In this document: piece after piece, positions 3,737 to 36,446 of the stretch
Numbering within the stretch: the first letter of the stretch is position 1
Layout: each line of letters starts with the position of its first letter
DNA from: Desulfuromonadales bacterium
GTDB lineage: Bacteria; Desulfobacterota; Desulfuromonadia; Desulfuromonadales; Syntrophotaleaceae
Length of the DNA stretch: 38,619 nt
NCBI GenBank assembly: GCA_030613545.1
Contig: JAUWLU010000006.1
Coordinates: 1-38,619 of the forward strand
Direction: 5' to 3'
Position numbers and translations under genes: made by a program
The notes under the pieces: generated by a model
The model's database searches: none
Seen by the model: the letters and a program-made list of their open reading frames with translations, nothing else
Told to the model about the DNA's origin: nothing

Positions 3737-3886
3737 GATGCTTTCGCAAAAACTCATAAGATGGCTAAGCAAAAATTTCGCCCTACAAGGCGTAGTGGTT
3801 TTTCAGGGGTGAAGGCATACATATGGTATGTCGAGGTCCTGAAAAAGCACTGCAACGCAGTAGGGTGGACTTTTTGCGACGCCATC
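3737..3886 (-). repeat. MITE-like palindromic element, copy A (full, reverse orientation)
   Basis: A 150-bp element that begins GATG...TCGCAAAAA and ends TTTTTGCGACGCCATC. Internal arms CCTACAAGGCGTAG...TTTTTCAGG and CCTGAAAAAGCAC...GCAGTAGG fold back around a CATATG centre. It is flanked on both sides by the identical 7-bp sequence AGAGGCT (3730-3736 and 3887-3893), the mark of a target-site duplication. Copies B, D and E carry the same element in the other orientation and C is a fragment. The 3655-3938 interval contains nothing else I can recognise. Confidence 0.93.
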
Positions 3887-6720: not shown

Positions 6721-6870
6721 GATGCCGTCGCAAAAAGTCCGTCCTACTGCGTTGCAGTGTTTTTTCAAGACTTCGACATACCATATGTATGCCTTCACCC
6801 CTGAAAAAGCACTACGCCTTGTAGGTCGAAATTTTTACTTAGCCATCTCATGGCTTTTTGCGAACCCATC
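6721..6870 (+). repeat. MITE-like palindromic element, copy B (full, forward)
   Basis: The same 150-bp element as copy A, in the opposite orientation: GATGCCGTCGCAAAAAGTCC at the left and GGCTTTTTGCGAACCCATC at the right. It is flanked directly by AAACTT on both sides (6715-6720 and 6871-6876). It occupies the divergent gap between slyX and the SCO gene. In this copy the short internal reading frame starting MAKQKFRP in other copies is broken after MAK by a TAA codon, which argues that the element is not protein-coding. Confidence 0.93.
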
Positions 6871-7022: not shown

Positions 7023-7946
7023 ATGATCTGCAACGTCTCATTTGCGCGGCAAACCTTGCTCAAAAACAGCCGCCTGTCCTTGCTGACGCTACTGGCCTTG
7101 GCCGGCCTGCTCTGCCTGCTAGCGACCAGGGCCGGCGCAACTCAGTCAGCCGCTGAATCAGACATGACCGGCACGGCCCCTATGCAGCACCACGGTCAGC
7201 AGACCGAACAACAGGCCCCGCAACACCGGCATGAACATTCAGCACAGGCGATGCCGAACAATCAGGTCGGCATCGATGAGAAGCTCGGCGCTTTCATCCC
7301 CCTTGACCTGACCTTTCGGGATGAAGAGGGCCAGTCGGTGGCCTTGCGCGAACTCATTACCGGCCCAACCATCATCGTCCCCATCTACTACAGCTGTCCC
7401 AACGTCTGCGCTTTTTTGCAGGCCGACCTGGCCCGCAACCTGCCGCTGGTCAAGATGCAGCCGGCGCAGGACTATCGGGTGCTGTCCATCAGTTTCGATG
7501 AGCTCGATACCCCGGCGGCGGCCCGGGCGGCGCGCAAGACCTACCTGACCGCCATGGGCCAACCCTTTCCGGAGCAAGGCTGGCGTTTTCTGACCGGTGA
7601 GGCCGACGCCAGCCGGGCTCTGACCGAAGCGGCCGGCTACCGCTACCTGCGCCAGGGCAATGACTTTCTCCATCCGGTGGTGATCTTCGTCGTCACCGGC
7701 GAGGGCCGCATCGTCCGCTACCTGCACGGCACCCGTATGCTGCCCATGGACCTGACCCTGGCTCTTACCGAGGCCAGCGAGGGGCGCCTCGGCAGTACCA
7801 TCCGCAAGGTGGTGCGCTTCTGCTTCAGCTACGACTCGCAACAAAAGCACTATGTGTTCAACCTGCTGCGCATCGCCGCCACGGTGATCCTGGTCACGGC
7901 CGGCGGTTTTCTGCTGTTTCTGTTTATTTCTGGTCGCAAACGCTGA
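7023..7946 (+). CDS. SCO1/SenC-family copper chaperone for cytochrome oxidase
   Basis: A 307-residue, membrane-tethered thioredoxin-fold protein that delivers copper to, or reduces, the CuA site of cytochrome oxidase subunit II. The copper ligands are Cys125 and Cys129 in YYSCPNVCAF and His217 in NDFLHPVV. Residues 15-35 form a signal or anchor. A second hydrophobic helix closes the protein (VILVTAGGFLLFLFISG), which is unusual for SCO proteins and would pin both ends to the membrane. Residues 54-72 are rich in His and Gln (MQHHGQQTEQQAPQHRHEH), a possible extra metal-binding arm. The start has GAGG upstream. It opens the caa3 operon, 71 bp ahead of subunit I, which fits its role. Confidence 0.93.
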   Translation: MICNVSFARQTLLKNSRLSLLTLLALAGLLCLLATRAGATQSAAESDMTGTAPMQHHGQQTEQQAPQHRHEHSAQAMPNNQVGIDEKLGAFIPLDLTFRDEEGQSVALRELITGPTIIVPIYYSCPNVCAFLQADLARNLPLVKMQPAQDYRVLSISFDELDTPAAARAARKTYLTAMGQPFPEQGWRFLTGEADASRALTEAAGYRYLRQGNDFLHPVVIFVVTGEGRIVRYLHGTRMLPMDLTLALTEASEGRLGSTIRKVVRFCFSYDSQQKHYVFNLLRIAATVILVTAGGFLLFLFISGRKR

Positions 7947-8017
7947 CCCCGCTGCCGACAGGCCCGTGGCCGGGCCTCTATGCAGCCTGTTAACCAAGCA
8001 CGGAAAGCTGTCATCCT

Positions 8018-9631
8018 ATGGCCAAGCAAAATGACCGCGGTTTTCTTCAGGCTTCCGACCGGCAGCCACTGCTCTTCGACTGGATCTTCTCCGTCGACCA
8101 CAAGCGCATCGGCCTGCTCTATCTCTATTCGGTCGGCGCTTTTTTCCTCGCCGGGGTGGCGCTGGGCGTGCTGCTGCGCCTGGAACTCATCGCTCCCGGA
8201 CCGACCATCGCCACGGCTCAGACCTACAACGCCCTCTTTACCCTGCACGGCGTGGTAATGATCTTTCTGTTTATCATCCCCGGCATCCCCGGCGCCTTCG
8301 GCAACCTCATGCTGCCGCTGCAGATCGGCGCCCGGGATGTGGCCTTTCCGCGCCTCAACCTGCTCTCCTGGTGGCTCTATATCCTTGGCGCCTTCATGGC
8401 CCTGACCTCCCTGTTCAGCGGCGGCGGGCCGCCGGATACCGGCTGGACCTTCTACGTGCCCTTCAGTTCCGAAACCCCGACCAACGTCTCGCTGGCCCTG
8501 CTGGCGGTGTTCATCATCGGCTTTTCCTCGATTCTGACCGGGGTCAACTTCGTCACCACGATCCATCGCCTGCGGGCGCCGGGCATGCACTGGGGGCGGC
8601 TGCCGCTCTTCGTCTGGTCCCTCTACGCCACCGCCTGGGTGCAGATTCTCGCCACTCCGGTGCTCGGCATCACCATGGTGCTGCTGATGGTCGAACGGCT
8701 GATCGGCCTCGGCCTGTTCGATCCGGGCCGCGGCGGCGATCCGATCCTCTACCAGCACCTGTTCTGGATCTACTCCCACCCGGCGGTCTACATCATGATA
8801 TTGCCGGCCATGGGGGTGGTGTCGGAGATCATTCCGGTCTTCGCCCGCAAACCGACCTTCGGCTACAAGGCCATCGCCGCATCGAGCGTCGCCATCGCCG
8901 CCGCCGGCTCCCTGGTCTGGGGCCACCACATGTTCGTCAGCGGCATGAGCGACACCGCCATCCTGGTCTTTTCCCTGCTGACCTTTCTGGTCGCCATCCC
9001 GTCGGCGGTCAAGGTCTTCAACTGGGTCGCCACCCTCTACCGTGGCTCCATCTCCCTTGAGCCACCGATGCTCTTTGCCCTGGCCTTCGTCTTCCTCTTT
9101 TCTATCGGCGGCCTGACCGGCCTGATTCTCGGCTCGGCGGCCACCGACGTGCACGTCCACGACACCCACTTCGTAGTCGGCCACTTCCACTACGTCATGT
9201 TCGGGGGCACCGGCTTCGCCTTCTTTGCCGCCCTGCATTACTGGCTGCCGAAGGTTTTCGGCCGAATGTACAATATGAAAGCCGCCACCATCGCCTGGGC
9301 CATCATCTTCGTCGGCTTCAATCTGCTCTATTTCCCGATGATGCTGGTGGGCCTGCACGGCATGCCCCGTCGCTACTACGATTATCTGCCGCAATTCCAA
9401 CAGCTCAATGTGATCGCTACCGCCGGTTCCTGGGTGCTGGCCGCCGGCCTGCTGCTGATGTTCGTCAATCTCTATCGCGGCATGCGGCGCGGCGCGGCAG
9501 CCGGCAGCAACCCCTGGCAGGCCGCGACCCTCGAATGGGTGCTGACCTCACCGCCGCCGGCAGAAAGCTTTTCACAGCCGCCCCAGGTAACCCACGGACC
9601 CTACGATCTGCAACAGGCGGGGAAACCATGA
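8018..9631 (+). CDS. ctaD: caa3-type cytochrome c oxidase subunit I (A2-type haem-copper oxidase)
   Basis: A 537-residue polytopic membrane protein that reduces O2 to water and pumps protons. It carries the haem and CuB ligands in FTLHGVVMIF, YSHPAVYIMILP, WGHHMFVSGM and HDTHFVVGHFHYVMFG. The YSHPAVY sequence replaces the GHPEVY of A1 oxidases: the channel glutamate is absent and Tyr-Ser precede the CuB histidine, which is the signature of the A2 branch (as in Rhodothermus caa3). The cross-linked Tyr is kept. The stop overlaps the subunit III start by ATGA. The gene order D-E-F-C-B with SCO ahead is compact. The 516-aa minus-strand ORF across this gene is a shadow. Confidence 0.97.
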   Translation: MAKQNDRGFLQASDRQPLLFDWIFSVDHKRIGLLYLYSVGAFFLAGVALGVLLRLELIAPGPTIATAQTYNALFTLHGVVMIFLFIIPGIPGAFGNLMLPLQIGARDVAFPRLNLLSWWLYILGAFMALTSLFSGGGPPDTGWTFYVPFSSETPTNVSLALLAVFIIGFSSILTGVNFVTTIHRLRAPGMHWGRLPLFVWSLYATAWVQILATPVLGITMVLLMVERLIGLGLFDPGRGGDPILYQHLFWIYSHPAVYIMILPAMGVVSEIIPVFARKPTFGYKAIAASSVAIAAAGSLVWGHHMFVSGMSDTAILVFSLLTFLVAIPSAVKVFNWVATLYRGSISLEPPMLFALAFVFLFSIGGLTGLILGSAATDVHVHDTHFVVGHFHYVMFGGTGFAFFAALHYWLPKVFGRMYNMKAATIAWAIIFVGFNLLYFPMMLVGLHGMPRRYYDYLPQFQQLNVIATAGSWVLAAGLLLMFVNLYRGMRRGAAAGSNPWQAATLEWVLTSPPPAESFSQPPQVTHGPYDLQQAGKP

Positions 9632-10224
9632 CCATGCAACGGGATGCGACCGCAGCCCGCCTCGGCATGTGGCTGTTTCTGTTTTCGGAACTGCTGCTGT
9701 TTGGCGGTCTGTTTCTACTCTACGCCGTCTACCTGGCCCGCTATCCGGCCGATTTCGTCGCCGGCGGCCGACAGCTCGACCTGCTGCTCGGCACCGGCAA
9801 TACGATACTGCTGATCACCAGCAGCCTGACCGTGGCCCTGGCCCTGAGTGCCTTGCAACAGGGGCGGCGGCGCCTCTGCCTGGGGCTGCTCTGTGCCACC
9901 GTGCTGGCGTCGCTGCTGTTTCTGGTCAACAAGGGCGTCGAATGGCAGGCCAAGTTCGACCACGGCCTCTTTCCCGGCGGCGCCCGGCTGGAAGAGACGG
10001 CGCCGGGACAGAAGGTCTTTTTCGGCCTCTATTTCGTGACCACCGGCCTGCACGGCCTACACGTGCTGATCGGTGCGGCGCTGCTGCTGTGGATTCTCGG
10101 CCTGGTGGGCAGCGGCCGCGTTACCGAACAGGATCCGGTCATGCTGGAAAACGGCGCCCTCTACTGGCACCTGGTCGATTTGATCTGGATCTTCATCTTC
10201 CCCCTGTACTATCTGCTGCTGTAA
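9628..10224 (+). CDS. ctaE: Cytochrome c oxidase subunit III
   Basis: A 198-residue membrane protein with about five TM helices. Typical subunit III features are LGMWLFLFSELLLFGGLFLLY, GLYFVTTGLHGLHVLIGA and the C-terminal YWHLVDLIWIFIFPLYYLL. I use ATG 9628, which makes an ATGA overlap with the end of ctaD and has GGGG upstream, instead of the ORF-track start at 9535 inside ctaD. Subunit III stabilises the proton pump and O2 delivery in subunit I. Five to seven helices are known in this family and this is the short form. Confidence 0.95.
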   Translation: MTMQRDATAARLGMWLFLFSELLLFGGLFLLYAVYLARYPADFVAGGRQLDLLLGTGNTILLITSSLTVALALSALQQGRRRLCLGLLCATVLASLLFLVNKGVEWQAKFDHGLFPGGARLEETAPGQKVFFGLYFVTTGLHGLHVLIGAALLLWILGLVGSGRVTEQDPVMLENGALYWHLVDLIWIFIFPLYYLLL

Positions 10225-10234
10225 CGAGGGATTC

Positions 10235-10519
10235 ATGAACCGATATTCGCATCCGGCTCTCAGTTTTCGCTGTCTGACCACCGTCTGGGCTTTGCTGCTG
10301 GTTCTAACCGGGATAACCGTATTCGTTTCCCGTCTCGATCTCGGCGCCCTCAACATCTGGGCGGCCCTCGGCATCGCCACCTTGAAGGCGAGCCTGGTGG
10401 TCCTCTACTTCATGCACCTGAAACACGAGCCCCGACTGCTCAAGCTCTGTCTGTTCATCGCCCTGTTGACCCTGGCCAGCTTTATCGGCCTGACTTTTTT
10501 CGACGTCCTCTACCGTTGA
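10235..10519 (+). CDS. ctaF: Cytochrome c oxidase subunit IV (prokaryotic small subunit)
   Basis: A 94-residue protein with three TM helices. The middle segment, LGIATLKASLVVLYFMHLKHEP, is the hallmark of the bacterial subunit IV family (cytochrome C oxidase subunit IV/CtaF). GAGGG lies 6 nt before the ATG, and only 10 nt separate it from ctaE. It helps assemble or stabilise the oxidase and holds no cofactor. Confidence 0.92.
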   Translation: MNRYSHPALSFRCLTTVWALLLVLTGITVFVSRLDLGALNIWAALGIATLKASLVVLYFMHLKHEPRLLKLCLFIALLTLASFIGLTFFDVLYR

Positions 10520-10527
10520 GACCGACC

Positions 10528-11460
10528 GTGACCGATCTGCCCTTTACTACCATCGAAGCTGTCGACGCCGTCTTTCTCTACATCTTCGGCATCGCCGCCC
10601 TGCTGCTGGTCGGCATTACCGCGACCATGGTGGTCTTCGTGGTCCGCTACCACCGCCGCCGCCATCCACAGCCGCAGCCGAGCCCCAGTTCCAAGCTCTG
10701 GCTGGAACTGGTCTGGACCCTGATCCCGACCCTGATCGTGCTGAGCATGTTCTGGTACAGCTGGGAGGGTTATCTGAAATTGATCGACGTGCCGCCCGAT
10801 GCGCTCAAGGTGCAGGCCGAGGGCCGCAAGTGGTCCTGGAATTTCAGCTACGAAAACGGTCGCAGCAGCGACCGCCTCTATGTGCCGGTGGGCAGGGCGG
10901 TACGGGTGGCGATCGTATCGCGTGATGTGTTGCACAGCCTCTATATCCCGGCCTTTCGGGTCAAAAAGGACGCCGTGCCCGGCATCACCACCTACGTCTG
11001 GTTCCGGGCCCCGGAAGTGGGCTCCTACGACCTCTTTTGCGCCGAATATTGCGGCGTCAGCCATTCGTCCATGGTCACCACCGTGGAGGCCTTGCCGGAA
11101 GCGCAATTCAGCGCCTGGCTGGAAAAAAGCAAAAAGCCGTCTGCCGCCGGCGGCCCGGCCCTGCTGAGCCGCCACGGCTGCACCGGCTGCCACTCGCTGG
11201 ATGGCAGCCGGCGGGTCGGACCGAGTTTTCTTGGCCTGTTCGGCCGCCAGACGCAGGTGCTGAGCGACGGCCGGGAACGGACCCTGACCGCCAACCAGGA
11301 CTATGTGCGGCGCTCCATCCTGCAGCCCCAGGCCGATCTGGTGCAGGGTTATCCGCCGGTCATGCCCTCCTACCAGGGGCAGATTCCACCGGACGAATTG
11401 CAAACTCTGGTCGATTATCTGTGCAGCGAGCCGTTGTCGGCCGCACCGGCTGGACCATGA
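10528..11460 (+). CDS. ctaC: caa3 oxidase subunit II with CuA centre and fused cytochrome c
   Basis: A protein of about 310 residues that accepts electrons from cytochrome c and passes them to subunit I. Two TM helices (residues about 12-36 and 57-76) are followed by the CuA cupredoxin domain with CAEYCGVSHSSM (Cys171, Cys175, His179, Met182; the upstream ligand is His in LHSLYIP). A C-terminal cytochrome c domain has Cys218-Thr-Gly-Cys221-His222 and an MPSYQG methionine region. The covalently attached haem makes this a caa3 enzyme. The start is uncertain: GTG 10528 has a GAG 7 nt upstream, while TTG 10516 would overlap the ctaF stop and shows no ribosome-binding site. There is no lipobox or cleavable signal beyond TM1. 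Confidence 0.95.
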   Translation: MTDLPFTTIEAVDAVFLYIFGIAALLLVGITATMVVFVVRYHRRRHPQPQPSPSSKLWLELVWTLIPTLIVLSMFWYSWEGYLKLIDVPPDALKVQAEGRKWSWNFSYENGRSSDRLYVPVGRAVRVAIVSRDVLHSLYIPAFRVKKDAVPGITTYVWFRAPEVGSYDLFCAEYCGVSHSSMVTTVEALPEAQFSAWLEKSKKPSAAGGPALLSRHGCTGCHSLDGSRRVGPSFLGLFGRQTQVLSDGRERTLTANQDYVRRSILQPQADLVQGYPPVMPSYQGQIPPDELQTLVDYLCSEPLSAAPAGP

Positions 11461-12248
11461 TAACCAGCCTGCTGCGCATTCGCCTCTGCGGCGCGGTGGC
11501 CGCGGCCGCCCTGACCGGGCTGCTGCTCTGTCCCGGCGCCCACCTGGCCGCTGCCCTGCCTTTGGCCTGCGGCACCTGGCTGCTGGCCGCCTGCGGTACC
11601 ATGCTCAATCAAATCCAGGAGCGACACAGCGATGCCCGCATGATCCGCACCCGCAACCGGCCTTTGGCGGCTGGCCGCCTACGGCCGCCTGCGGTGCTGG
11701 TCGCCGCAACGGTTTCCGGCAGCCTCGGCTTGGTGCTGCTGGCTCTGTGCAACTGGCGCAGCGCTATGGCCGGGGCTGCGGCCTTGCTCTGCTACAACGG
11801 CCTCTACACTCCGCTGAAAAAGCACACCGCGCTGGCCTTGCTGCCTGGCGCTTGCTGCGGCAGCCTGGCCCCCTGCCTCGGCTGGCTGGCCGGCGGCGGC
11901 CGGCCCGGTGACCACCGCATGGTCCTGCTGGGCGGCCTGCTGCTGCTCTGGCAGCTGCCTCATTTCTGGTCGTTCGCCCTGCGCCACTGGGCCGACCTGC
12001 AGCGGGCCGGACTCTTTCCGGACCTGCCCCTGCAGCCGGCTGGCCCCCTGCGCGGGCTGATTTTTCTCTGGACCTTCGCCCTGACTGTCGCTACCCTGCT
12101 ACTGCCGACTCTGGGTGTCCTGCCCCGCTGGCCAACCGCCCTGCTCTGCCTAGTTTTCTGGATCGGGCCGTTGAGGCGATGGTGGTCACTACGAGCGGCC
12201 TCAGCTGCCCCTGAAACCATTACCCCTGCAACAGCCATAGACCTCTAG
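11457..12248 (+). CDS. ctaB: Protohaem IX farnesyltransferase (haem O synthase)
   Basis: A 263-residue UbiA-family prenyltransferase that farnesylates haem B to haem O for the oxidase. The polyprenyl diphosphate motif is present as NQIQERHSDARMIRTRNRPL, and the second motif region is YNGLYTPLKKHT; both match CyoE/CtaB. LLLLWQLPHFWSFALRH is also a family stretch. I use ATG 11457, which overlaps the ctaC stop in ATGA, instead of the long upstream ORF-track extension. It is somewhat shorter than the usual 290 residues, with few residues before TM1. No haem A synthase (ctaA) follows, so the enzyme may carry haem O, or ctaA may lie elsewhere. Confidence 0.93.
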   Translation: MITSLLRIRLCGAVAAAALTGLLLCPGAHLAAALPLACGTWLLAACGTMLNQIQERHSDARMIRTRNRPLAAGRLRPPAVLVAATVSGSLGLVLLALCNWRSAMAGAAALLCYNGLYTPLKKHTALALLPGACCGSLAPCLGWLAGGGRPGDHRMVLLGGLLLLWQLPHFWSFALRHWADLQRAGLFPDLPLQPAGPLRGLIFLWTFALTVATLLLPTLGVLPRWPTALLCLVFWIGPLRRWWSLRAASAAPETITPATAIDL

Positions 12249-14589: not shown

Positions 14590-14693
14590 GGGCCACCGGA
14601 AGCAACTTAGGCGGCCACCTTTTCCTGCTATACTTTTTTTGCGTTTATTGTCTGTTTGATGATGCTCATGCCATGCCCCCCTGGAGCGGCCCC

Positions 14694-16220
14694 ATGAACG
14701 AACCGTCCACTGTTTTGCCATCCAGCGAAAACAACCAAACCCTGATTGACAATGTTCACCCGGCCGGTTGGGAGAATCCGCAACCGGCCCCCCGTTACAA
14801 CCTGGTGGTACTCGGCGGGGGGCCTGCCGGTCTAGTAACGGCCGCCGGTGCAGCCGGCCTCGGTGCCAAGGTGGCTTTGGTAGAGAACGCCCTGCTGGGC
14901 GGTGACTGTCTCAACAACGGCTGTGTCCCCTCCAAAAGCGTGGTTCGCTCCGGCCGGGCGCTGCATAACGCCCGCAATACCGGGCTGCTCGGCGCTCTTG
15001 ACGGAGCGAACCTCCGAGCAAACTTTGCCGGCGTCATGGCGCGCATGGAAAAGATCCGGGCCGGATTGAGCGACCACGACTCGGCGCAGCGGTTCAGCCG
15101 GGAACTCGGGGTCGATGTCTTCTTCGGCCATGGCCGCTTTGCCGGCCCCGACCGGCTGCAGGTCGGCGACAAGATCCTGCGTTTCAAAAAAGCTGCCATC
15201 TGCACTGGCGCCCGGGCCGCTGTTCCACCGCTAGCGGGGCTGGAGGAGAGCGGTTACCTGACCAACGAAACGGTCTTTGCCCTAACCGAGCTACCGGAGC
15301 GGCTGGCGGTGTTCGGAGCCGGCCCCATCGGCTGCGAACTGGCCCAGGCCTTTGCCCGTCTCGGCAGTGAGGTGACCATCTTCGAATACGGCCCCCGGCT
15401 GCTGCCACGGGAAGATCGGGACGCTGCCGAGATCGTACGTAAGGCTTTTACCGCAGAAGGAATCCGTCTCTGTTTCAACGTCCGCACCCAGCATGTCGAG
15501 CGTCGGGGCTCAGAGCGAATCATCACCTATGTAGACGACGGCCACAGTGACACACTGGCCGTCGACCAGATCCTGATCGGCATCGGCCGGGCGCCAAATG
15601 TCGACGGTCTCGACCTGGAAAAAGCCGGCATCGACTACCACCCCAAGTCGGGGATAAAGGTCAATGACCGCCTGCAGACCAGTAATCCGCGCATTTTCGC
15701 CGCCGGAGATGTCTGTTCCCGCTACAAGTTCACCCACACCGCTGACGCCCAGGCGCGGATCGTCATCGCCAACGCTCTGTTCATGGGCAGACAGCGCAAT
15801 TCACGGCTGGTCATTCCCTGGGCGACCTATACCTCTCCCGAGATTGCTCACGTCGGTATGTATGAAAAAGAAGCACGCGACCGCGGTTACCAAGTCACCA
15901 CCCTGACCGTGCCTCTGGACGATACCGACCGGGCCCGGATCGACGGGGAAACGGAAGGGTTTGCCCGGGTCCATCTGAAAAAGGGCAGCGACAAAATCCT
16001 CGGTGCCACAATCGTCGCCCAGCATGCCGGCGAGATGATCGGCGAACTGGCGCTGGCCGTCACCAACGGACTCGGCCTGACGGCCATCGGTCGGACGCTG
16101 CACCCTTACCCGACCCAGGCCGAAGCGATCAAAAAACTGGCCGACGCCTACAACCGTAGCCGCCTGACCCCGGGGCTGAAAAAAGTGCTAGACCTCTGGC
16201 TGCGCTGGCAGCGCCGCTGA
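14694..16220 (+). CDS. FAD-dependent pyridine nucleotide-disulfide oxidoreductase, MerA/Lpd-like
   Basis: A 508-residue flavoprotein of the dihydrolipoamide dehydrogenase/mercuric reductase family. FAD binding is by VVLGGGPAGLVTAAGAA, and the redox-active disulfide is in GGDCLNNGCVPSKS. NAD(P)H binds at VFGAGPIGCELAQAFARLG, and the second FAD segment is IFAAGDVCSRYKFTH. The C-terminal interface motif is LHPYPTQAEAIKKLAD in place of the HPTxxE of true lipoamide dehydrogenases. It lacks the C-terminal vicinal cysteines of MerA, so mercury reduction is not supported. Relatives with this C-terminus are often fused to a TVP38/TMEM64 membrane domain, which is absent here. I choose ATG 14694 (GGAG at 7 nt) over ATG 14673. 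A TATACT -10-like box lies at 14629. The physiological substrate is unknown. Confidence 0.88.
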   Translation: MNEPSTVLPSSENNQTLIDNVHPAGWENPQPAPRYNLVVLGGGPAGLVTAAGAAGLGAKVALVENALLGGDCLNNGCVPSKSVVRSGRALHNARNTGLLGALDGANLRANFAGVMARMEKIRAGLSDHDSAQRFSRELGVDVFFGHGRFAGPDRLQVGDKILRFKKAAICTGARAAVPPLAGLEESGYLTNETVFALTELPERLAVFGAGPIGCELAQAFARLGSEVTIFEYGPRLLPREDRDAAEIVRKAFTAEGIRLCFNVRTQHVERRGSERIITYVDDGHSDTLAVDQILIGIGRAPNVDGLDLEKAGIDYHPKSGIKVNDRLQTSNPRIFAAGDVCSRYKFTHTADAQARIVIANALFMGRQRNSRLVIPWATYTSPEIAHVGMYEKEARDRGYQVTTLTVPLDDTDRARIDGETEGFARVHLKKGSDKILGATIVAQHAGEMIGELALAVTNGLGLTAIGRTLHPYPTQAEAIKKLADAYNRSRLTPGLKKVLDLWLRWQRR

Positions 16221-28495: not shown

Positions 28496-28617
28496 CAGAG
28501 CCGTCCCGACCGGACGTAAGGAGCAAAAAGCGTTGTAAAGCATGGGATTTATGTTTAAATGGCCAAGGAGCCTGCCTGCCCGAGACCGATGATTGCAATG
28601 CACGGCTGCCAATAGTT

Positions 28618-28767
28618 GATGCCGTCGCAAAAAGTCCGTCCTACTGCGTTGCAGTGCTTTTTCAGGACTTCGACATACCATGTGTATGCCTTCACCCCTG
28701 AAAAAGCACTACGCCTTGTAGATCGAACTTTTTGCTTAGCCATCTCATGGCTTTTTGCGAACCCATC
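28618..28767 (+). repeat. MITE-like palindromic element, copy D (full, forward)
   Basis: A 150-bp copy with GATGCCGTCGCAAAAAGTCC and GGCTTTTTGCGAACCCATC ends, flanked by AATAGTT on the left and AATCGTT on the right (6 of 7 identical). It lies 45 bp ahead of the first gene of the act operon, so its hairpin or any outward promoter could influence that operon. The intervals 28496-28617 and 28768-28812 show nothing else recognisable. Confidence 0.93.
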
Positions 28768-28812
28768 AATCGTTGTGCGATCCATTTTTCTCCCACGCCC
28801 CAGGGTACCCGA

Positions 28813-30027
28813 ATGCTACCGGTCATCCAGGAACAACTGTTGCTCATCAAAGCGATGCAGGGCGTTTGCCAGACCCTGCTCTGCCTGTCCCTCGGCTACC
28901 TGGCGGGCGAGGTTCTGCTCACCCTGCCCGGCAAAGCACTCTTTACGCCCAGCGCTCCACAGCCTCCCTCGACCGACACCGCCCAAGGCCCCAAAGTGCT
29001 TACCGGCAGACGCGCCGGCCTGTTGATCGCCCTGATCATGGCCTGCAACCTGCTGCTGATGAAAATCGCCTATCGCGCCGCACTCTTCACCGGCCCCTTC
29101 TGGGGGGGACTGACGGTCCTGTTCATTATCGGCCTGGCCCTCATTCTGACGGCCCGGCAGCACCTCAAGGGCGCTCACCCGGCCGGGCGCCTTTCCCTCG
29201 CTGCGGCGGTGATCGGCGACTTACTGCTGTTGTCGATCTGCTATTTTCTGCTCAACGCCGAAAGCCTGCTACTAACCCCTGAGGCCTGGCCATTTCTCGC
29301 CACCCGGCCACCGTTACTGCTATCCTGGCACGGCACCGTCCGTTTTGCCCAGTTCACCCTGCTGGCTCTGATGCTGGCCGGACTCGACCGACGACGCAAC
29401 CGCCAGGTGCTGATTTTCGGTGCAGCGCTACTCTGGCCGCTCGGTCAGATTCTGGAGTTGCTGCTGGGCCCGGAACTGGCCCGCTCCCCATGGCTCTACC
29501 TGGCGGCAGCCCTGGCCCTGATGACAAGTGCCGCCCTGGCCCTGATGACGACCGGGCCCCTGCTGCAAAAACGGCCGCTGCCTCTAACCCCTCCCCTGGC
29601 CGGTATCATCGTGCTGGCCATGCTCTGGGTGCTGGGAGCTCAAACCGCTCGGGAGAACACCCTCACCGGCGTCGCCCTGGCCGGCCTGCAGCTCCCCCCG
29701 GTGGCAGGCCAGACACCGGCAATCCCGTCCGCACCACAGACTGCAGCAAAGCCGCAAGCGGCACCGGCAATCGACGGCGGCCAACTGTTCCAACAAAAGT
29801 GCAGCGTCTGCCATCGCTTCGACCAACGCCTGGTGGGTCCGCCGCTGAACACCGTGCTCGGAAAATATCGTCCGGATAAAAACAAACTGGCGGGCTTTCT
29901 GCGCAATCCGCAAAAAGTCGATCCAGGCTATCCGACGATGCCCAACCTCAACTTGACGGAGCAGGAAGCCGACGCGGTAGCCGGCTATCTGCTCGATCGC
30001 GAGACTGCTCAACCAGCGCCGCGCTAG
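28813..30027 (+). CDS. Polytopic membrane protein fused to a C-terminal cytochrome c domain
   Basis: A 404-residue protein. Roughly eight hydrophobic helices fill residues 10-300, with a conserved-looking LLSWHGTVRFAQFTLLALML segment containing a His inside a membrane stretch. A Pro/Ala linker (about 305-320) leads to a class I cytochrome c domain: Cys330-Ser-Val-Cys333-His334 and probable axial Met376 in YPTMPNLNL. I do not recognise the membrane part. As the first gene of the act operon it may supply the monohaem cytochrome role filled elsewhere by ActE, anchored by its own helices (inference). ATG 28813 is chosen because the upstream ORF-track start at 28732 lies inside MITE copy D. A 95-nt gap follows before actA. 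Confidence 0.8.
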   Translation: MLPVIQEQLLLIKAMQGVCQTLLCLSLGYLAGEVLLTLPGKALFTPSAPQPPSTDTAQGPKVLTGRRAGLLIALIMACNLLLMKIAYRAALFTGPFWGGLTVLFIIGLALILTARQHLKGAHPAGRLSLAAAVIGDLLLLSICYFLLNAESLLLTPEAWPFLATRPPLLLSWHGTVRFAQFTLLALMLAGLDRRRNRQVLIFGAALLWPLGQILELLLGPELARSPWLYLAAALALMTSAALALMTTGPLLQKRPLPLTPPLAGIIVLAMLWVLGAQTARENTLTGVALAGLQLPPVAGQTPAIPSAPQTAAKPQAAPAIDGGQLFQQKCSVCHRFDQRLVGPPLNTVLGKYRPDKNKLAGFLRNPQKVDPGYPTMPNLNLTEQEADAVAGYLLDRETAQPAPR

Positions 30028-30122
30028 ATGGTTGCAGGGCTTAAGGGGCCGGTCAAACAATTTTGCCGCCGGTTCCCTGGCAAGCTCCTTCAACCTGCGG
30101 CTCGGCCCAAAGAGGCTTCGCA

Positions 30123-30635
30123 ATGCCCAAGTGGTTGCCCCATATCCTGTTATGCGCCTACTTTGGCGGCTTTTTACTGCTCATAGCAGTGCTTGCCTGG
30201 TTCAGGCCCGCAGCGCATCGGGACAACAGTCAGCCCATCGCTTTTCCTCATACGGTGCATGCTGGCCGCCTTGGCCTGGCCTGCAACTTCTGTCACGAAT
30301 CGGTTGCTCACGGCCCGCAAGCCGGCATGCCGGCCGTGGCCAAATGCGTTTCCTGCCATCAGGCGATCGCCACGGAGCGACCGGAAATCCAGAAGCTGCT
30401 GAGCTATCAGAAAAAGGGCGAACCGATCCGCTGGCGACGAATCCACCAGTTACCCGACTTCATCTACTTTTCTCACAAACGCCATGTCAGCAGCGGCCTG
30501 GATTGTAGCGCCTGCCACGGCGCCATCGCAGAGATGAAGGAGGTGCGCCGGGTCCGCTCCCTGCAGATGGGCTGGTGCCTGAGCTGCCATCGCAGCCGTG
30601 GCGCTTCCTTCGACTGCGCCACCTGTCATAAGTGA
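30123..30635 (+). CDS. actA: Pentahaem cytochrome c, ActA-like subunit of alternative complex III
   Basis: A 170-residue protein with one N-terminal membrane anchor (HILLCAYFGGFLLLIAVLAWF) and five CxxCH motifs: CNFCH, CVSCH, CSACH, CLSCH and CATCH. The count and anchor match ActA of alternative complex III, which takes electrons from the iron-sulfur subunit to the terminal acceptor. Extra His residues (FPHTVHAG, FSHKRHVSSG) are likely distal ligands. ATG 30123 has AGAGG upstream. The stop codon TGA is created by the insertion of MITE copy E; before insertion it would have been TAA at the same codon, so the protein is unchanged. Confidence 0.9.
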   Translation: MPKWLPHILLCAYFGGFLLLIAVLAWFRPAAHRDNSQPIAFPHTVHAGRLGLACNFCHESVAHGPQAGMPAVAKCVSCHQAIATERPEIQKLLSYQKKGEPIRWRRIHQLPDFIYFSHKRHVSSGLDCSACHGAIAEMKEVRRVRSLQMGWCLSCHRSRGASFDCATCHK

Positions 30636-30783
30636 TTGCGTCGCAAAAAGTCCGCCCTATTGCGTTGCAGCGCTTTTTCAGGACTTCGACATACCATATG
30701 TATGCCTTCACCCCTGAAAAACCACTACGCCTTGTAGGTCGAAATTTTTGCTTAGCCATCTCATGCCTTTTTGCGAGTCCATC
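30634..30783 (+). repeat. MITE-like palindromic element, copy E (full, forward), inside the act operon
   Basis: A 150-bp copy (GATTGCGTCGCAAAAAGTCC ... TTTTTGCGAGTCCATC) flanked directly by ATAAGT on both sides (30628-30633 and 30784-30789). It sits between actA and actB. Removing it together with one flank restores CAT AAG TAA, then 15 nt, then the actB ATG, a normal tight operon junction. The element is therefore a clear later insertion. Confidence 0.95.
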
Positions 30784-30806
30784 ATAAGTAACGGAGAGAA
30801 CCGAGC

Positions 30807-33605
30807 ATGGATCGACGGCAGTTCCTACAGATGCTCGGCCTGGTTTCCGGAGCCGCAGCACTCTCATCCTGCGGCTCCGATAAGGGCCAGAAGGAGCTCG
30901 TTTCGCTACTGGTGCCCACCGAAGACGGCATCGTTCCCGGAACCGAAGCCTGGCGGCCGTCGACCTGCTGTGAATGCCCGGCCCACTGCGGCCTGCTGAC
31001 CCGCATACGCGAAAACCGCCCGGTCAAACTTGAAGGCAACCCTCGGCACCCTGTCAACCGCGGCGGCCTGTGCCTGCGCGGCCAGGCCTCGCTGTGGCGG
31101 CTGTATCACCCTCAGCGCCTGCAGTCCCCCCTCAAACGGCAAGCCGACGGACGCTTGCAGACCATCCCCTGGTCTCAAGCGTTGGCTGAAATTGCCGAAG
31201 CCCTGCAGCACAGCCGCCGGCAAAGCCGGCAAAATGCCTGGCTGGCCGGTCGCACCAGCGGCACCCTGAATGCCCTTCTCGAAGAGTTCTGCAGCTCCCT
31301 GGGCATCGAACGGCTGGCGGAATTTGAACCCTTTTCCCACGCCGCCCTGAGGCAAAGCTATGGTCTACTCTTTGATCGTGCCGACCTGCCCCGCTATCGC
31401 GGCGATCAAGCCGACCTGCTGATCACCGTCGGTGCCGATTTGCTGGAGACATTCCTCAGCCCCGTCGATTACACGACCCAAGCCAGCGCCCTGGCGGCCG
31501 ATCAAAAACGCCACTGGCTGCACCTGGAGCCGCACTATTCCCTGACCGGCGCCAACGCCGACGACCGATTGGTCCTGACACCCGGCAGCGAAGGGTCGCT
31601 GTTGCTCTGGCTGCTGCAGTCCCTGGCTTCCCAGAGACGTTACCGGGGCCGCTGGCCACAAGCGCTGCAGGATTTGCTTCCCGCCAGCGATCTCGCCGCA
31701 ACGGCCGCCGCCACCGGCTTGCGATCCCAACAACTGCAGCAATTGGCCTCGCGCTTTGCGCGGGCTGAAAAACCGCTGCTGATCGTAGGCGGGGTTGCCA
31801 CCGGCCATCGCAACGGCCAGCCGGTCGCCCTGCTCGGTGCTCTGCTGCAGTGGCTGACCGCCCTGCCCTGGGGCGGCATGGATTTTTCCGCCGGAGAAAA
31901 CTATTCGCGGGTCGGCTCCCTGCTGGACCTGGAAGAATTGAGCCAGCGCCTCGCCGCCGACCGCATCGGCGTGCTGTTCGTCAGTCGCTGCGACCCGGTT
32001 CGCCACAGCCCCGCCGCCCTGGGCTTACAAGGCACCCTGGCCAAGGCGCGGTTGCGGGTCGGTCTGGCGGACCTGGCCGATGACACCACCGACCAGATGG
32101 ATCTGATCCTGCCTCTGGCCCACGGCCTCGAAACCTGGGGCGACACCGAGCCCCGCCGGGGCGTTATCGGCCTGCTACAGCCATTACGAACCCCGCAGCA
32201 GCAAGCCCTGAGCGAGGGCGATCTGCTGCTTAAACTGCTGCGACAGGCCACCGGCAAAAGCCCGGCTGCCGACTGGGAGACCTATCTGCAAAGGAACTGG
32301 CAGAACCGCTTTAGCCGCGTTCAACTGGGCCAGCTGATGGACGATGGCTACCTGACCGAACCCCAGCCGCAGCTCTCCATCCGCCTCGACCTGGCCCGCG
32401 CGGCGAAGGCTCTGCAAGGCCTGCATCTGCAGGCTCCCCTGACCCTGCCGGCAGCGGTCATCGCGCCGTCGATCCGCTCCTTTGACGGCCGCAGCCGCAG
32501 CCTGGAACTGCTCTCGGAGATTCCCGACCCCCTCACCACCATCTCTTACGGCAGCTGGGTTGCCATCGCCCCGCAGACCGCCGCCCGCCTGCGCCTGCAG
32601 GACGGCGACGAGCTGCAGATGAAAACCGCTGCCTGGCAGAGCAAGCAACCGGTTCGCATCCAGCCCGGCCAGGCAGCCAAAGTCCTGACCCTGCCCATGG
32701 ACAGCCTGCCGGCCCCGGCAACAGGCATCGATCCCCTTACCGGCGAGGCGCTGCGCTATTGCGAAGCCCTGCACTTAAAGCCCACCGGGAAGCGCCATCG
32801 CTTGCCGATTCTGGCCGGCTCGCCCTCACAGCAGGGGCGCGGCCTGATTCCCACGCCGGTGCATCGCCAGCAGAAGCATGACCAGCAAAATCACGGCCCC
32901 CGGGCCTCCTTCTATCCGGAGCCGCATTACGAAAACTACCGCTGGGCCATGGCCATCGATCTGCAGCGCTGTATCGGCTGCAGCGCCTGTGTAGCCGCCT
33001 GTTATGTGGAAAACAATGTGCCGGTGGTCGGCGCAGCCGACCATCTGGCCGGACGGGAGATGTCCTGGCTGCGCATCGAACCCTTTTACGATGAACAGGG
33101 GCGGGTCGATTTTCTGCCCATGCTCTGCCAGCACTGCAACTACGCCCCCTGCGAGGCGGTCTGCCCGGTCTATGCCGCCTACCACAATCCCGAGGGGCTC
33201 AATGTGCAGGTCTACAACCGCTGTGTCGGCACCCGCTACTGCAGCAACAACTGCCCCTACAAGGTGCGACGTTTCAACTGGTGGCAGCACAAGCGCACTC
33301 CGCCCCTCGACCTGCTGCGTAACCCCGACCTGCCTCTGCGCAGCAAGGGGATGATGGAAAAATGCACCTTTTGCCTGCAGCGGATTCGCATCGCCAAGGA
33401 TCGCGCCAAGGACCAAAAACGCCTGGTGCAAGACGGCGAAGCAACCCCGGCCTGCGCCCAGAGCTGCCCGGCCGGCGCCATCGCCTTCGGCAACCTGCTC
33501 GATAAAGAGTCGGGAATCTACCGCTTGGTGCACAGCCAGCGCGCTTACCGGGTCCTGGCCGAACTGGGCACCGAACCGGCAGTCCACTATTTGCGCCCCG
33601 AATAA
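30807..33605 (+). CDS. actB: ActB-like subunit: molybdopterin-oxidoreductase-like domain fused to four-cluster ferredoxin domain
   Basis: A 932-residue iron-sulfur subunit of alternative complex III. The N-terminus has a twin-arginine-type signal (MDRRQFLQMLGLVSGAAALSSC). Residues 50-660 are a molybdopterin-oxidoreductase-like domain, and 710-930 a ferredoxin domain. The ferredoxin half has 15 motif cysteines (CIGCSACVAAC, CQHCNYAPCEAVC, CVGTRYCSNNC, CTFC, CAQSC), as expected for three [4Fe-4S] plus one [3Fe-4S]. The N-terminal half also keeps Cys54, Cys57, Cys61 and Cys89 (C-x2-C-x3-C-x27-C), the cluster motif of true molybdoenzymes. Whether Mo binds cannot be told. GGAGAG precedes the ATG. 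It passes electrons from the quinol site in ActC to ActA. Confidence 0.9.
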   Translation: MDRRQFLQMLGLVSGAAALSSCGSDKGQKELVSLLVPTEDGIVPGTEAWRPSTCCECPAHCGLLTRIRENRPVKLEGNPRHPVNRGGLCLRGQASLWRLYHPQRLQSPLKRQADGRLQTIPWSQALAEIAEALQHSRRQSRQNAWLAGRTSGTLNALLEEFCSSLGIERLAEFEPFSHAALRQSYGLLFDRADLPRYRGDQADLLITVGADLLETFLSPVDYTTQASALAADQKRHWLHLEPHYSLTGANADDRLVLTPGSEGSLLLWLLQSLASQRRYRGRWPQALQDLLPASDLAATAAATGLRSQQLQQLASRFARAEKPLLIVGGVATGHRNGQPVALLGALLQWLTALPWGGMDFSAGENYSRVGSLLDLEELSQRLAADRIGVLFVSRCDPVRHSPAALGLQGTLAKARLRVGLADLADDTTDQMDLILPLAHGLETWGDTEPRRGVIGLLQPLRTPQQQALSEGDLLLKLLRQATGKSPAADWETYLQRNWQNRFSRVQLGQLMDDGYLTEPQPQLSIRLDLARAAKALQGLHLQAPLTLPAAVIAPSIRSFDGRSRSLELLSEIPDPLTTISYGSWVAIAPQTAARLRLQDGDELQMKTAAWQSKQPVRIQPGQAAKVLTLPMDSLPAPATGIDPLTGEALRYCEALHLKPTGKRHRLPILAGSPSQQGRGLIPTPVHRQQKHDQQNHGPRASFYPEPHYENYRWAMAIDLQRCIGCSACVAACYVENNVPVVGAADHLAGREMSWLRIEPFYDEQGRVDFLPMLCQHCNYAPCEAVCPVYAAYHNPEGLNVQVYNRCVGTRYCSNNCPYKVRRFNWWQHKRTPPLDLLRNPDLPLRSKGMMEKCTFCLQRIRIAKDRAKDQKRLVQDGEATPACAQSCPAGAIAFGNLLDKESGIYRLVHSQRAYRVLAELGTEPAVHYLRPE

Positions 33606-33650: not shown

Positions 33651-34943
33651 ATGCAGAATTCAGCTTCCGCTCAGCAGATCGAACAGGACGTTCTCGCGGC
33701 CATGAGCAGGCCGAGTCGCTGCTACCTGGCCTGCATCCTGCTGGCCGGGCTGCTGTTCCTCGGCGGCATGGCCCTGTGGGGCCGGCAGATCGCCCTCGGC
33801 ATGGGCGTGGCCGGCATCAGCCACCCGGTCGGCTGGGGGGTCTACATTACCGACTTTGTCTTCTGGGTCGGCATCGCCCATTCCGGCACCCTGATTTCGG
33901 CGGTGCTCTATATCTTCCGCGCCCGCTTTCGCACCAGCTTCAACCGGGCCGCCGAAGCGATGACCCTCTTCGCCCTGATGGTGGCGGGACTGTTTCCCCT
34001 GATCCACCTCGGCCGCGTCTGGCTCGCCTATTTTCTGTTTCCTTACCCCAACCAGCGCCAGCTGTGGGTCAACTTCCGTTCGCCGCTGGTGTGGGACGTG
34101 TTCGCCGTTTCGACCTACATGCTGGTCAGCCTGGTCTTTTTCTACATCGGCCTGCTCCCCGACCTGGCCATCGTCGCCCGCCGCCGCCCAGGTCCCGTAG
34201 GCAAAATCTATCGCCTGCTGACCCTCGGCTGGGTCGGCAGCTCGCAGCAGTGGCGCCACTATGCCAAGCTCTACTTCCTTCTCGCCGCCTTTGCCACCCC
34301 GCTGGTCGCTTCGGTCCACTCCATCGTCTCCTGGGACTTCGCGGTCAGCATCGTTCCCGGCTGGCATACCACCATCTTTGCCCCCTATTTCGTGGCCGGG
34401 GCAATCCTCTCCGGCACCGCCATGGTCATCACCCTGGTGATCCCCATGCGCCGCCTGCTGCGCCTGGAAGCCTATATCCCCGTCACGCATATCGAAGCGA
34501 TCGCCAAGATTCTGTTGCTGACCTCCTTGATCGTCAGCTTCGCTTATATTGTCGAACAGGGCCTGGCCTTCTACAGCGGCAACCTGTTTGAGATGGAGCA
34601 GTTCCGCTTTCGCGCCCTCGGCGACTACCGGCTGCTGTTCTGGATTATGATCAGCTGCAACTCGCTCCTGCCCATGACCCTGTTCGTCGGCCGCCTGCGG
34701 CGCAACCTGGCCTACCTGTTCGTCCTCTCCCTGCTGGTCAATGTCGGCATGTGGCTGGAGCGGTTCGTCATCGTGGTCACGTCCCTGGCACGGGACTTCG
34801 ACCCCTATGCCTGGGGGAACTACACCCCTTCCCTGACCGAAATCGGCATTACCGCCGGCTCCTTCGGTCTGTTTTTTCTGCTCTTTTTGCTCTTCATCAA
34901 GGTTCTGCCTGTGTTGTCGATCACCGAACTGAAGGAGCGCTGA
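33651..34943 (+). CDS. actC: NrfD-family quinol-binding membrane subunit ActC
   Basis: A 430-residue membrane protein with about ten TM helices of the NrfD/PsrC family, the quinol-oxidising subunit of alternative complex III. Typical segments are GWGVYITDFVFWVGIAHSGTLISAVLY, GWHTTIFAPYFVAGAILSGTAMV and ERFVIVVTSLARDFDPYAWGNYTPS. The His of HSGT and acidic residues in the first helical bundle lie where the quinol site of this family is found. It is followed after 1 nt by actD. Confidence 0.94.
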   Translation: MQNSASAQQIEQDVLAAMSRPSRCYLACILLAGLLFLGGMALWGRQIALGMGVAGISHPVGWGVYITDFVFWVGIAHSGTLISAVLYIFRARFRTSFNRAAEAMTLFALMVAGLFPLIHLGRVWLAYFLFPYPNQRQLWVNFRSPLVWDVFAVSTYMLVSLVFFYIGLLPDLAIVARRRPGPVGKIYRLLTLGWVGSSQQWRHYAKLYFLLAAFATPLVASVHSIVSWDFAVSIVPGWHTTIFAPYFVAGAILSGTAMVITLVIPMRRLLRLEAYIPVTHIEAIAKILLLTSLIVSFAYIVEQGLAFYSGNLFEMEQFRFRALGDYRLLFWIMISCNSLLPMTLFVGRLRRNLAYLFVLSLLVNVGMWLERFVIVVTSLARDFDPYAWGNYTPSLTEIGITAGSFGLFFLLFLLFIKVLPVLSITELKER

Positions 34944-34944
34944 T

Positions 34945-35397
34945 ATGGCCCGGCAGCTTATCTTTGACGATCAACAGACCTTTCTGCAGCAACTGGAACA
35001 ATTGCTGGCCGACGGCATTGCCGGTGAACATCTGGAGGTGCGCACCCCCTACCACCTCAGCGAGGTTGAAGCCTTGCTTGGCCAGCAGCCGAGCAAACTG
35101 CCGTTTTTTGCCCTGGGAGGAGCTCTGGCCGGTTTCGGCGGCGGCTTCCTGCTGGCGGCGCTAACCTCCCTCGACTGGCCTATCATCACCGGTGGCAAAC
35201 CGATCGTGGCGGTGCCGCCCTTTCTGCTTATCGGCTATCTGATGACCATCCTGATCGGATCGCTGGCCTCCTTTGGCGGCTTTCTGCTCTTGGCCAGGCT
35301 GCCCCGAATCGATGCCCTGGTCGAAGAACAGGATTTCGACGCCCATTTTATCATCACCATTGCGGACGAGGTTGCGCCATGCACGACTCCAAGCTGA
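34945..35397 (+). CDS. actD: ActD-like DUF3341 subunit of alternative complex III
   Basis: A 150-residue protein with a cytoplasmic N-terminal half and two TM helices (FFALGGALAGFGGGFLLAAL and FLLIGYLMTILIGSLASFGGF), ending in EEQDFDAHFIITI. The DUF3341 fold and the order after actC identify ActD. It helps hold the membrane subunits together and has no cofactor. AGGAG lies 8 nt before the ATG. Its last 19 nt overlap actF. Confidence 0.92.
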   Translation: MARQLIFDDQQTFLQQLEQLLADGIAGEHLEVRTPYHLSEVEALLGQQPSKLPFFALGGALAGFGGGFLLAALTSLDWPIITGGKPIVAVPPFLLIGYLMTILIGSLASFGGFLLLARLPRIDALVEEQDFDAHFIITIADEVAPCTTPS

Positions 35398-36446
35398 GCG
35401 CCGGCGGCTGCTATAGCCTGCTGCTGATTCTGGCCGCCACCATCGGCCTCATAGAATACGGCGGCCTCATCGATCAGCAAGGATCGTTGCTGATCACCCT
35501 GACCTTCTGGAGTGCCGTCATTCAGGGAGCGGTCGCCGTAGCGGCGCTAACCGCCCTGGTGCGGGCCCAATGGATCGCGTCCTTGCGCCGCGAGCTGCTG
35601 GCCCTCTATCCGCTGCTGTTGCTGTTGGCGCTGCTGTTTGCCCTGCTCTGGCCCCAGCTCGACCTTTTCCCCTGGAGCGACCAGCCAACCATCTGGCTCA
35701 ACCGCCCCTTCTTCATGGGACGCAATCTGACCAGTTTGCTGCTGACCTTCCTTGCCGGCCGACAACTGGCACTGCATAGCACCAGCGGCGCTCCCTTCAA
35801 GGACCGCTACGCCGTGGTCTACCTGCTGACCTTCGTCCTCTCTCAGAGCCTGGTCGGTTTCGACTGGCTCATGTCGGCCGCCTACCCCTGGATCAGCACC
35901 ATGTTCGGCCTCTATTTCTTCACCGAAGCCCTCTATGCCGGCATCGCCGTTGCCGGCCTGGCCATGCTGCTATACTTCCGCCCCCGGCAGCAGATCGCAC
36001 CGAAGCAAACCGCCCGGCATCTGCGGGATGTCGGCCTGCTGCTGTTCGGCTTCAGCATCCTCTGGGCCGGGCTGTTTTTCGCCCAGTTCCTGCTCATCTG
36101 GTACGCTAACCTGCCCGAGGAGGTTCACTTCGTCACCGAACGTCTGGCCAGTTCCCCTGAAAGGGAGCTGTGCTGGCTGTTTCTGCTCGGCCTGTTTCTG
36201 ACCCCCTTTGTCACCCTGCTCGGCAGCGAGGCAAAGGGCGACCTGCGCTTTGTTTCGGCCGTTTCGCTGCTGGTGCTCACCGGTCTCTTCGCCGAGCGAC
36301 TGTTCATTCTGTTGCCGGCCATCCCCCATCATGGCGGCGCCCTGTTGCTTTACAACGGCCTGCTGTTCATCATGCTGCTGCTGGTCCTGCACAGCAGCGA
36401 GCGGCTGCTGCCACAAGCTTCGTCGGAAAGAGACGATACGCCGTAG
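35379..36446 (+). CDS. actF: ActF-like second NrfD-type membrane subunit
   Basis: A 355-residue membrane protein with about ten TM helices, related to ActC and forming the second NrfD-type subunit (ActF). The stretch QLALHSTSGAPFKDRYAVVYLLTFVLSQSLVGFDWLMS and FAQFLLIWYANLPEEVHFV are typical. It starts inside actD and ends the operon. No actE gene (monohaem lipoprotein) lies between actD and actF, where it often stands. The terminator is not obvious; a GC-rich inverted repeat follows 48 bp later. Confidence 0.9.
   Translation: MHDSKLSAGGCYSLLLILAATIGLIEYGGLIDQQGSLLITLTFWSAVIQGAVAVAALTALVRAQWIASLRRELLALYPLLLLLALLFALLWPQLDLFPWSDQPTIWLNRPFFMGRNLTSLLLTFLAGRQLALHSTSGAPFKDRYAVVYLLTFVLSQSLVGFDWLMSAAYPWISTMFGLYFFTEALYAGIAVAGLAMLLYFRPRQQIAPKQTARHLRDVGLLLFGFSILWAGLFFAQFLLIWYANLPEEVHFVTERLASSPERELCWLFLLGLFLTPFVTLLGSEAKGDLRFVSAVSLLVLTGLFAERLFILLPAIPHHGGALLLYNGLLFIMLLLVLHSSERLLPQASSERDDTP

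Follow-up and report, generated by a model that had tools for sequence, protein, structure and literature searches.

In molybdoenzymes of the CISM superfamily, the [4Fe-4S] cluster FS0 bridges the Mo site and the last of the ferredoxin-subunit clusters. When ActB, a subunit of alternative complex III (ACIII), originated, both Mo/W-bisPGD and clusters were lost (Wells et al. 2023; PMC10100899), and the B1 domain of Rhodothermus marinus ActB is cofactor-free (PMC5928083). FeS1 is the point of entry for electrons in the R. marinus ACIII, and the haems are their exit; in the solved complexes, FeS1 additionally leads to FeS2-4, a side wire that stops close to the protein surface, without an established role or known acceptor (PMC5928083). 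The four solved ActB proteins, from R. marinus (6f0k), Flavobacterium johnsoniae (6btm), Roseiflexus (6lod) and Chloroflexus (8k9e), resemble the protein described here in their fused B1-B2 architecture, in the 15 ligands of FeS1-4 and in their partners A, C, D and F, but all four lack each of the FS0 cysteines, which our protein, a member of the sister clade, retains as CCCC. For iron oxidisers, Kato et al. 2015 (PMC4643136) reported that ActB1, in an ACIII-Qrc clade, has 'the [4Fe-4S] binding motif (CX2CX3CX27C)'. The ligand spacing in these split ActB1 proteins of Fe-oxidising Betaproteobacteria and Zetaproteobacteria (PMC4643136; M. ferrooxydans SPV1_03948, PMC3179512) is identical to that of our ActB, although the iron oxidisers encode it in two genes (actB1 and actB2) and the Desulfuromonadales genome studied here in one fused protein. 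Hence, the fifth site is already known in kind, and the statement of an earlier note on this DNA that known ActB proteins carry four clusters only holds for the solved structures (PMC5928083) but not for the family (PMC4643136). The Act complex of Pelobacter carbinolicus (PMC3543383) is likewise encoded by a Desulfuromonadales act set, in which ActA is pentahaem and the monohaem ActE spans the membrane eight times; the FS0 motif is not discussed in the available part of that account.

The locus lies in a stretch of 38,619 nucleotides (the window) and is, judged by its genes, a complete ACIII gene set in the order ActE, A, B, C, D, F, with a predicted menaquinol:cytochrome c oxidoreductase as its product. 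All genes are on the plus strand. The actE-like gene (28810..30027) encodes several hydrophobic segments, recognised by eye, and a C-terminal monohaem cytochrome c (CSVCH; PF00034 over its cut-off), much like the eight-TM ActE of P. carbinolicus (PMC3543383); we preferred its ATG at 28810 to the mechanically assigned TTG at 28732 because the latter falls within a dispersed repeat. The adjoining actA (30063..30635, with a possible alternative ATG at 30123) encodes a pentahaem cytochrome c with five CxxCH motifs and an N-terminal membrane helix. ActA, C, D and F all find solved ACIII subunits as their best matches: 6f0k_A, the R. marinus ActA, for ActA (E 5.3e-37); 6f0k_C for the NrfD-type quinol subunit ActC (33651..34943; E 1.2e-131); and 6btm_F (E 4.8e-18) and 6f0k_F (E 3.1e-17) for the short NrfD-like ActF (35379..36446). 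ActD (34945..35397) also matches PF11821 over its cut-off, with 98 bits. Compared with the 24 functional positions listed for R. marinus ActC in PMC8076601 and PMC5928083, our ActC keeps 23, including His139, Ser164, Asp169 and Asp253 of the quinol site.

We also considered, and rejected, an assignment of the operon to the Qrc complex of sulfate reducers. QrcABCD likewise combines a multihaem cytochrome with a MopB-like, a four-cluster and an NrfD subunit, and several QrcB-like proteins carry the FS0 cysteines; however, Qrc forms a separate branch of the tree, and the scores of our proteins fall far below the curated cut-offs (QrcA 95.9 against 180 bits, QrcB 144.1 against 440, QrcC 200.8 against 400). 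QrcB has been described as cofactor-free. Most of the QrcB-like loci that we fetched (L169-L178) keep all four FS0 cysteines, with three in L169 (SCCC) and none in L172.

The actB gene (30807..33605) encodes 932 amino acids, in which a MopB-like half (B1) is fused to a four-cluster ferredoxin half (B2), with matches to PF04879, PF00384, PF12838 and PF13247 and an N-terminal Tat-type RR signal (MDRRQFLQML) recognised by eye. Its top PDB matches are the chains of all four solved ActB proteins (E 1.5e-103 to 4e-86). Translation places cysteines at positions 22, 54, 55, 57, 61, 89, 162, 395, 652, 722, 725, 728, 732, 774, 777, 782, 786, 806, 812, 816, 853, 856, 883 and 887, of which the 15 from C722 to C887 (32970..33467, plus strand) align with the solved proteins as predicted ligands of three [4Fe-4S] clusters and one [3Fe-4S] cluster, the FeS1-4 of ACIII. 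The predicted FS0 ligands Cys54 (codon at 30966), Cys57 (30975), Cys61 (30987) and Cys89 (31071) form an exact CX2CX3CX27C and are followed by Arg91 (30966..31073, plus strand), so that the earlier reading of 15 ferredoxin-half cysteines plus four in an FS0 layout is borne out. Across an alignment of our ActB with ten homologues of 49-86% identity, the 15 ferredoxin-half cysteines are invariant in all 11 sequences, as are C54, C57, C61, C89 and Arg91, the 'CxRG' residue, while the neighbouring Cys55 varies.

We found the four N-terminal cysteines to be more than a chance pattern, because the Pfam model Molybdop_Fe4S4 (PF04879) matches residues 48-101 from end to end with 47.4 bits (E 1.9e-12), far over its curated cut-off of 22.7 bits. 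When residues 44-148 were searched alone, the best PDB matches were FS0-bearing formate dehydrogenases with the cysteines aligned (best E 1.5e-11). Taken together, ActB encodes an FS0-type site, and a fifth Fe-S cluster is likely. An AlphaFold2 model of ActB, built from the 11-sequence alignment only, was poor, with a mean pLDDT of 56 and values of about 30 at residues 46-99, which contain FS0, and in the four-cluster domain; a Foldseek search with this model put ActB chains of ACIII at the top, yet at low TM-scores and high rmsd, and so adds little.

Upon sampling homologues from the order, the phylum (Desulfobacterota) and the Acidobacteriota, we rejected the possibility that only this protein has the motif. 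Among 135 aligned MopB-type N-termini, which include some molybdoenzymes for comparison, all four FS0 cysteines occur in 115 and none in 20, with no partial case. The homologue alignment that the earlier note had proposed as a check thus shows the motif to be invariant in the Desulfuromonadales clade of our ActB and to occur in the majority of ActB relatives, fused or split, from Desulfobacterota and Acidobacteriota. The FS0-less set comprises the solved Rhodothermus, Chloroflexus, Roseiflexus and Flavobacterium ActB proteins together with Acidobacteriota and Desulfobacterota relatives. Such an all-or-none pattern fits the prediction of a bound cluster. One could instead suppose that Cys54, Cys57, Cys61 and Cys89 carry no Fe-S cluster and form disulfides or bind another metal, as the periplasmic location of ActB would allow for disulfides. 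We consider this very unlikely: a disulfide pair would not explain why the four residues are retained or lost jointly, the spacing and local sequence are those of the FS0 profile from end to end, and a Tat-type RR signal suits the export of a folded, cofactor-loaded protein.

The presence of an FS0 motif within a MopB fold is a feature that our ActB shares with most members of the CISM molybdoenzymes (ArrA, PsrA, NapA, Fdh), and the earlier note had allowed for a retained cofactor site. Comparison with ArrA and formate dehydrogenase-like proteins does not support this part of the note. Unlike in the CISM molybdoenzymes, the position that aligns with the Mo-ligand cysteine, Ser177 in our protein (codon 31335..31337, plus strand), varies in this clade, being S, N, A or C among close relatives of 49-86% identity, and the nucleotide-binding signatures of our ActB are degenerate, with PGTD changed to PGSE and DPR to EPH. 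Split relatives and QrcB-like proteins have more of these signatures left (e.g., PRLSLT..PGTE), yet there too Glu replaces Asp. By sequence, then, both the Mo-ligand position and the nucleotide-binding signatures are degenerate, and we rejected an identity as a CISM molybdoenzyme on the Mo/W ligand and bisPGD signatures, even though the FS0 ligands are present. This makes it extremely unlikely that ActB remains catalytically active as a molybdo- or tungstoenzyme on a substrate of its own, tied to ACIII subunits. The retained MopB fold with a region like the beta-barrel domain IV would suit such an enzyme, as would Ser177, serine being the Mo ligand in DMSO reductases; however, the variability at position 177 and the altered signatures speak against it, the annotated neighbours whose families we searched include no molybdoenzyme chaperone, and the remaining operon is that of an ACIII.

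We built an ACIII tree from which the four cysteine columns had been removed (57 rows, 44 with all four cysteines and 13 with none; the solved ActB sequences were taken from HMMER alignments and are partial). Our ActB falls within a clade of 18 FS0-bearing ActB rows (support 100/100). Its sister clade (100/97; 17 rows) unites all of the FS0-less rows with four Acidobacteriota rows that bear FS0, and the more basal ACIII-like and split proteins are all FS0-bearing. As both the basal proteins and the clade of our ActB carry FS0, the motif is most simply ancestral, and we conclude that FS0 most likely is an ancestral feature that was lost in the textbook complexes. All bootstraps gave two changes of FS0 state, and a single loss was not rejected (AU p 0.26). 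FS0 would thus have been lost one or two times: two independent losses look likely, and one loss is compatible with the data. The tree also suggests that Mo disappeared from the MopB domain of ActB earlier than the FS0 cluster did. The earlier note had seen in this protein a possible evolutionary intermediate that links complex III to Psr/Qrc-like enzymes, a view that survives insofar as an ancestral feature was kept that canonical ActB proteins lost, FS0 being the more widespread and basal state in the tree. It does not survive as a special intermediate position, because FS0 is borne by a large part of the ACIII family, in which our ActB is nothing unusual, and its whole operon is that of an ACIII.

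The reading that we favour, and regard as probable, is an ACIII whose ActB retains FS0, the N-terminal [4Fe-4S] cluster inherited from a molybdoenzyme, no longer has a Mo/W-bisPGD site and would use FS0 to extend the FeS2-FeS4 wire. Menaquinol would be oxidised at ActC, and ActB would take up the electrons at the [3Fe-4S] cluster FeS1 and pass them through the ActA and ActE haems to periplasmic cytochromes. The side wire from FeS2 to FeS4 would most likely be one step longer, from FeS4 to FS0, and the extended wire could store electrons or, at the B1 domain, exchange them with a partner in the periplasm. The sequences show the motif and its conservation, the operon, the tree and the loss of Mo-site residues, from which we infer the occupancy of the cluster, the function of FS0 and, by analogy with CISM enzymes, its place after FeS4; FS0 would be an extra station of the side wire because in those enzymes it links the last ferredoxin cluster to the Mo site. 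Canonical ACIII functions without FS0, indicating that the function of FS0 may be dispensable.

The main rival to an electron-carrying FS0 is a bound cluster with a purely structural role, which would staple the N-terminal domain of B1 to the core without taking part in electron flow. Fold and function persist without FS0 in canonical ActB and in some QrcB proteins, FeS2-4 are themselves without a proven role, and some FS0-bearing relatives have lost the Arg of CxRG while keeping all four cysteines (L096, CAVAH; L115, CAMGQ), all of which would be compatible with a mere staple. The strict conservation of Arg91 in the clade of our ActB and the joint loss of the four ligands in one part of the tree, on the other hand, suggest more than that, and we hold a structural-only FS0 to be rather unlikely. 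With the role of FeS2-4 an open question (PMC5928083), the FS0-bearing and FS0-less sister sets offer a direct natural comparison.

Besides the pattern of FS0 retention and loss, the missing coupling residues in the clade of our ActB deserve the attention of specialists. A set of four residues has been proposed to link the oxidation of quinol with proton pumping (PMC5928083), and ActD Glu122 and ActF Tyr284 of R. marinus belong to it. Our ActD has Leu for Glu122 and our ActF has Gly for Tyr284, and in every Desulfuromonadales relative examined ActD position 122 is Leu or Ile and ActF position 284 is Gly. The Glu is kept in ActD of two Acidobacteriota (L017, L018). Many positions of the proton half-channel are changed in ActF, and those of ActC are kept. 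A clade without ActD Glu122 and ActF Tyr284 provides a natural test of their proposed coupling role.

Presence or absence of FS0 is further associated with the gene neighbourhood. Upon searching stretches of about 20 kb centred on ActB with phmmer, we found a haem-copper oxidase gene near all FS0-less ActB genes (21 of 21, at a distance of 4.4-6.5 kb) and within the stretch of 3 of the 39 FS0-bearing ones. Fisher's test gives p 2.5e-13, but the rows sampled amount to essentially one independent contrast on the tree, and we rejected this value as an independent test. The FS0-less ActB of F. johnsoniae, which is part of an aa3 supercomplex (PMC5928083), points in the same direction, while two FS0-bearing Acidobacteriota members of the clade of our ActB have an oxidase gene nearby, indicating that FS0 and an adjacent oxidase can coexist. 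One may speculate that FS0 marks a functional division of ACIII, in which FS0-bearing complexes exchange electrons with a periplasmic partner other than an oxidase through the FeS1-FeS4-FS0 wire as a second port, in either direction and possibly by bifurcation with the haem wire, while FS0 was lost in lineages whose ACIII became tied to oxygen reductases, and the Desulfuromonadales clade in addition has an altered proton-coupling apparatus that lacks ActD Glu122 and ActF Tyr284; as a whole, we regard this scheme as unlikely.

Several Acidobacteriota genomes encode both kinds of ActB, and in these the copy without FS0 lies beside a haem-copper oxidase gene and the FS0-bearing copy has none in its stretch (loci L218 and L240 in genome G428, L241 and L246 in G537, L244 and L245 in G563, and L247 and L250 in G573). 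The only PF00115 (COX1) match in the genome of our ActB lies at 8105-9436 of the window, 21 kb from actB. A cluster at 7023-12248 (plus strand) encodes SCO1-like, COX1, COX3, COX4_pro and COX2 proteins and a UbiA-type prenyltransferase, and its COX2 has a C-terminal haem c motif (GCTGCH) and is caa3-like.

The dispersed repeat, about 145-157 nt long, occurs in the window at 28612-28768 (plus) and 30628-30784 (plus), two copies within the operon that share 91% identity and precede actE and actB, respectively, and at two sites found via a 19-nt core, 3810-3828 (minus) and 6779-6797 (plus). A comparison with Rfam gave no match. The genome holds at least 40 copies at 93% identity or more, several of them at contig ends, and the repeat is also present in the genus and in some relatives; its minus strand has a strong predicted fold (-55.6 kcal/mol, z -5.4). 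Elsewhere in the window, 14673-16220 (plus strand) encodes a pyridine nucleotide-disulphide oxidoreductase resembling dihydrolipoamide dehydrogenase, and in P. carbinolicus, too, a dihydrolipoamide dehydrogenase has been noted close to the act operon (PMC3543383).
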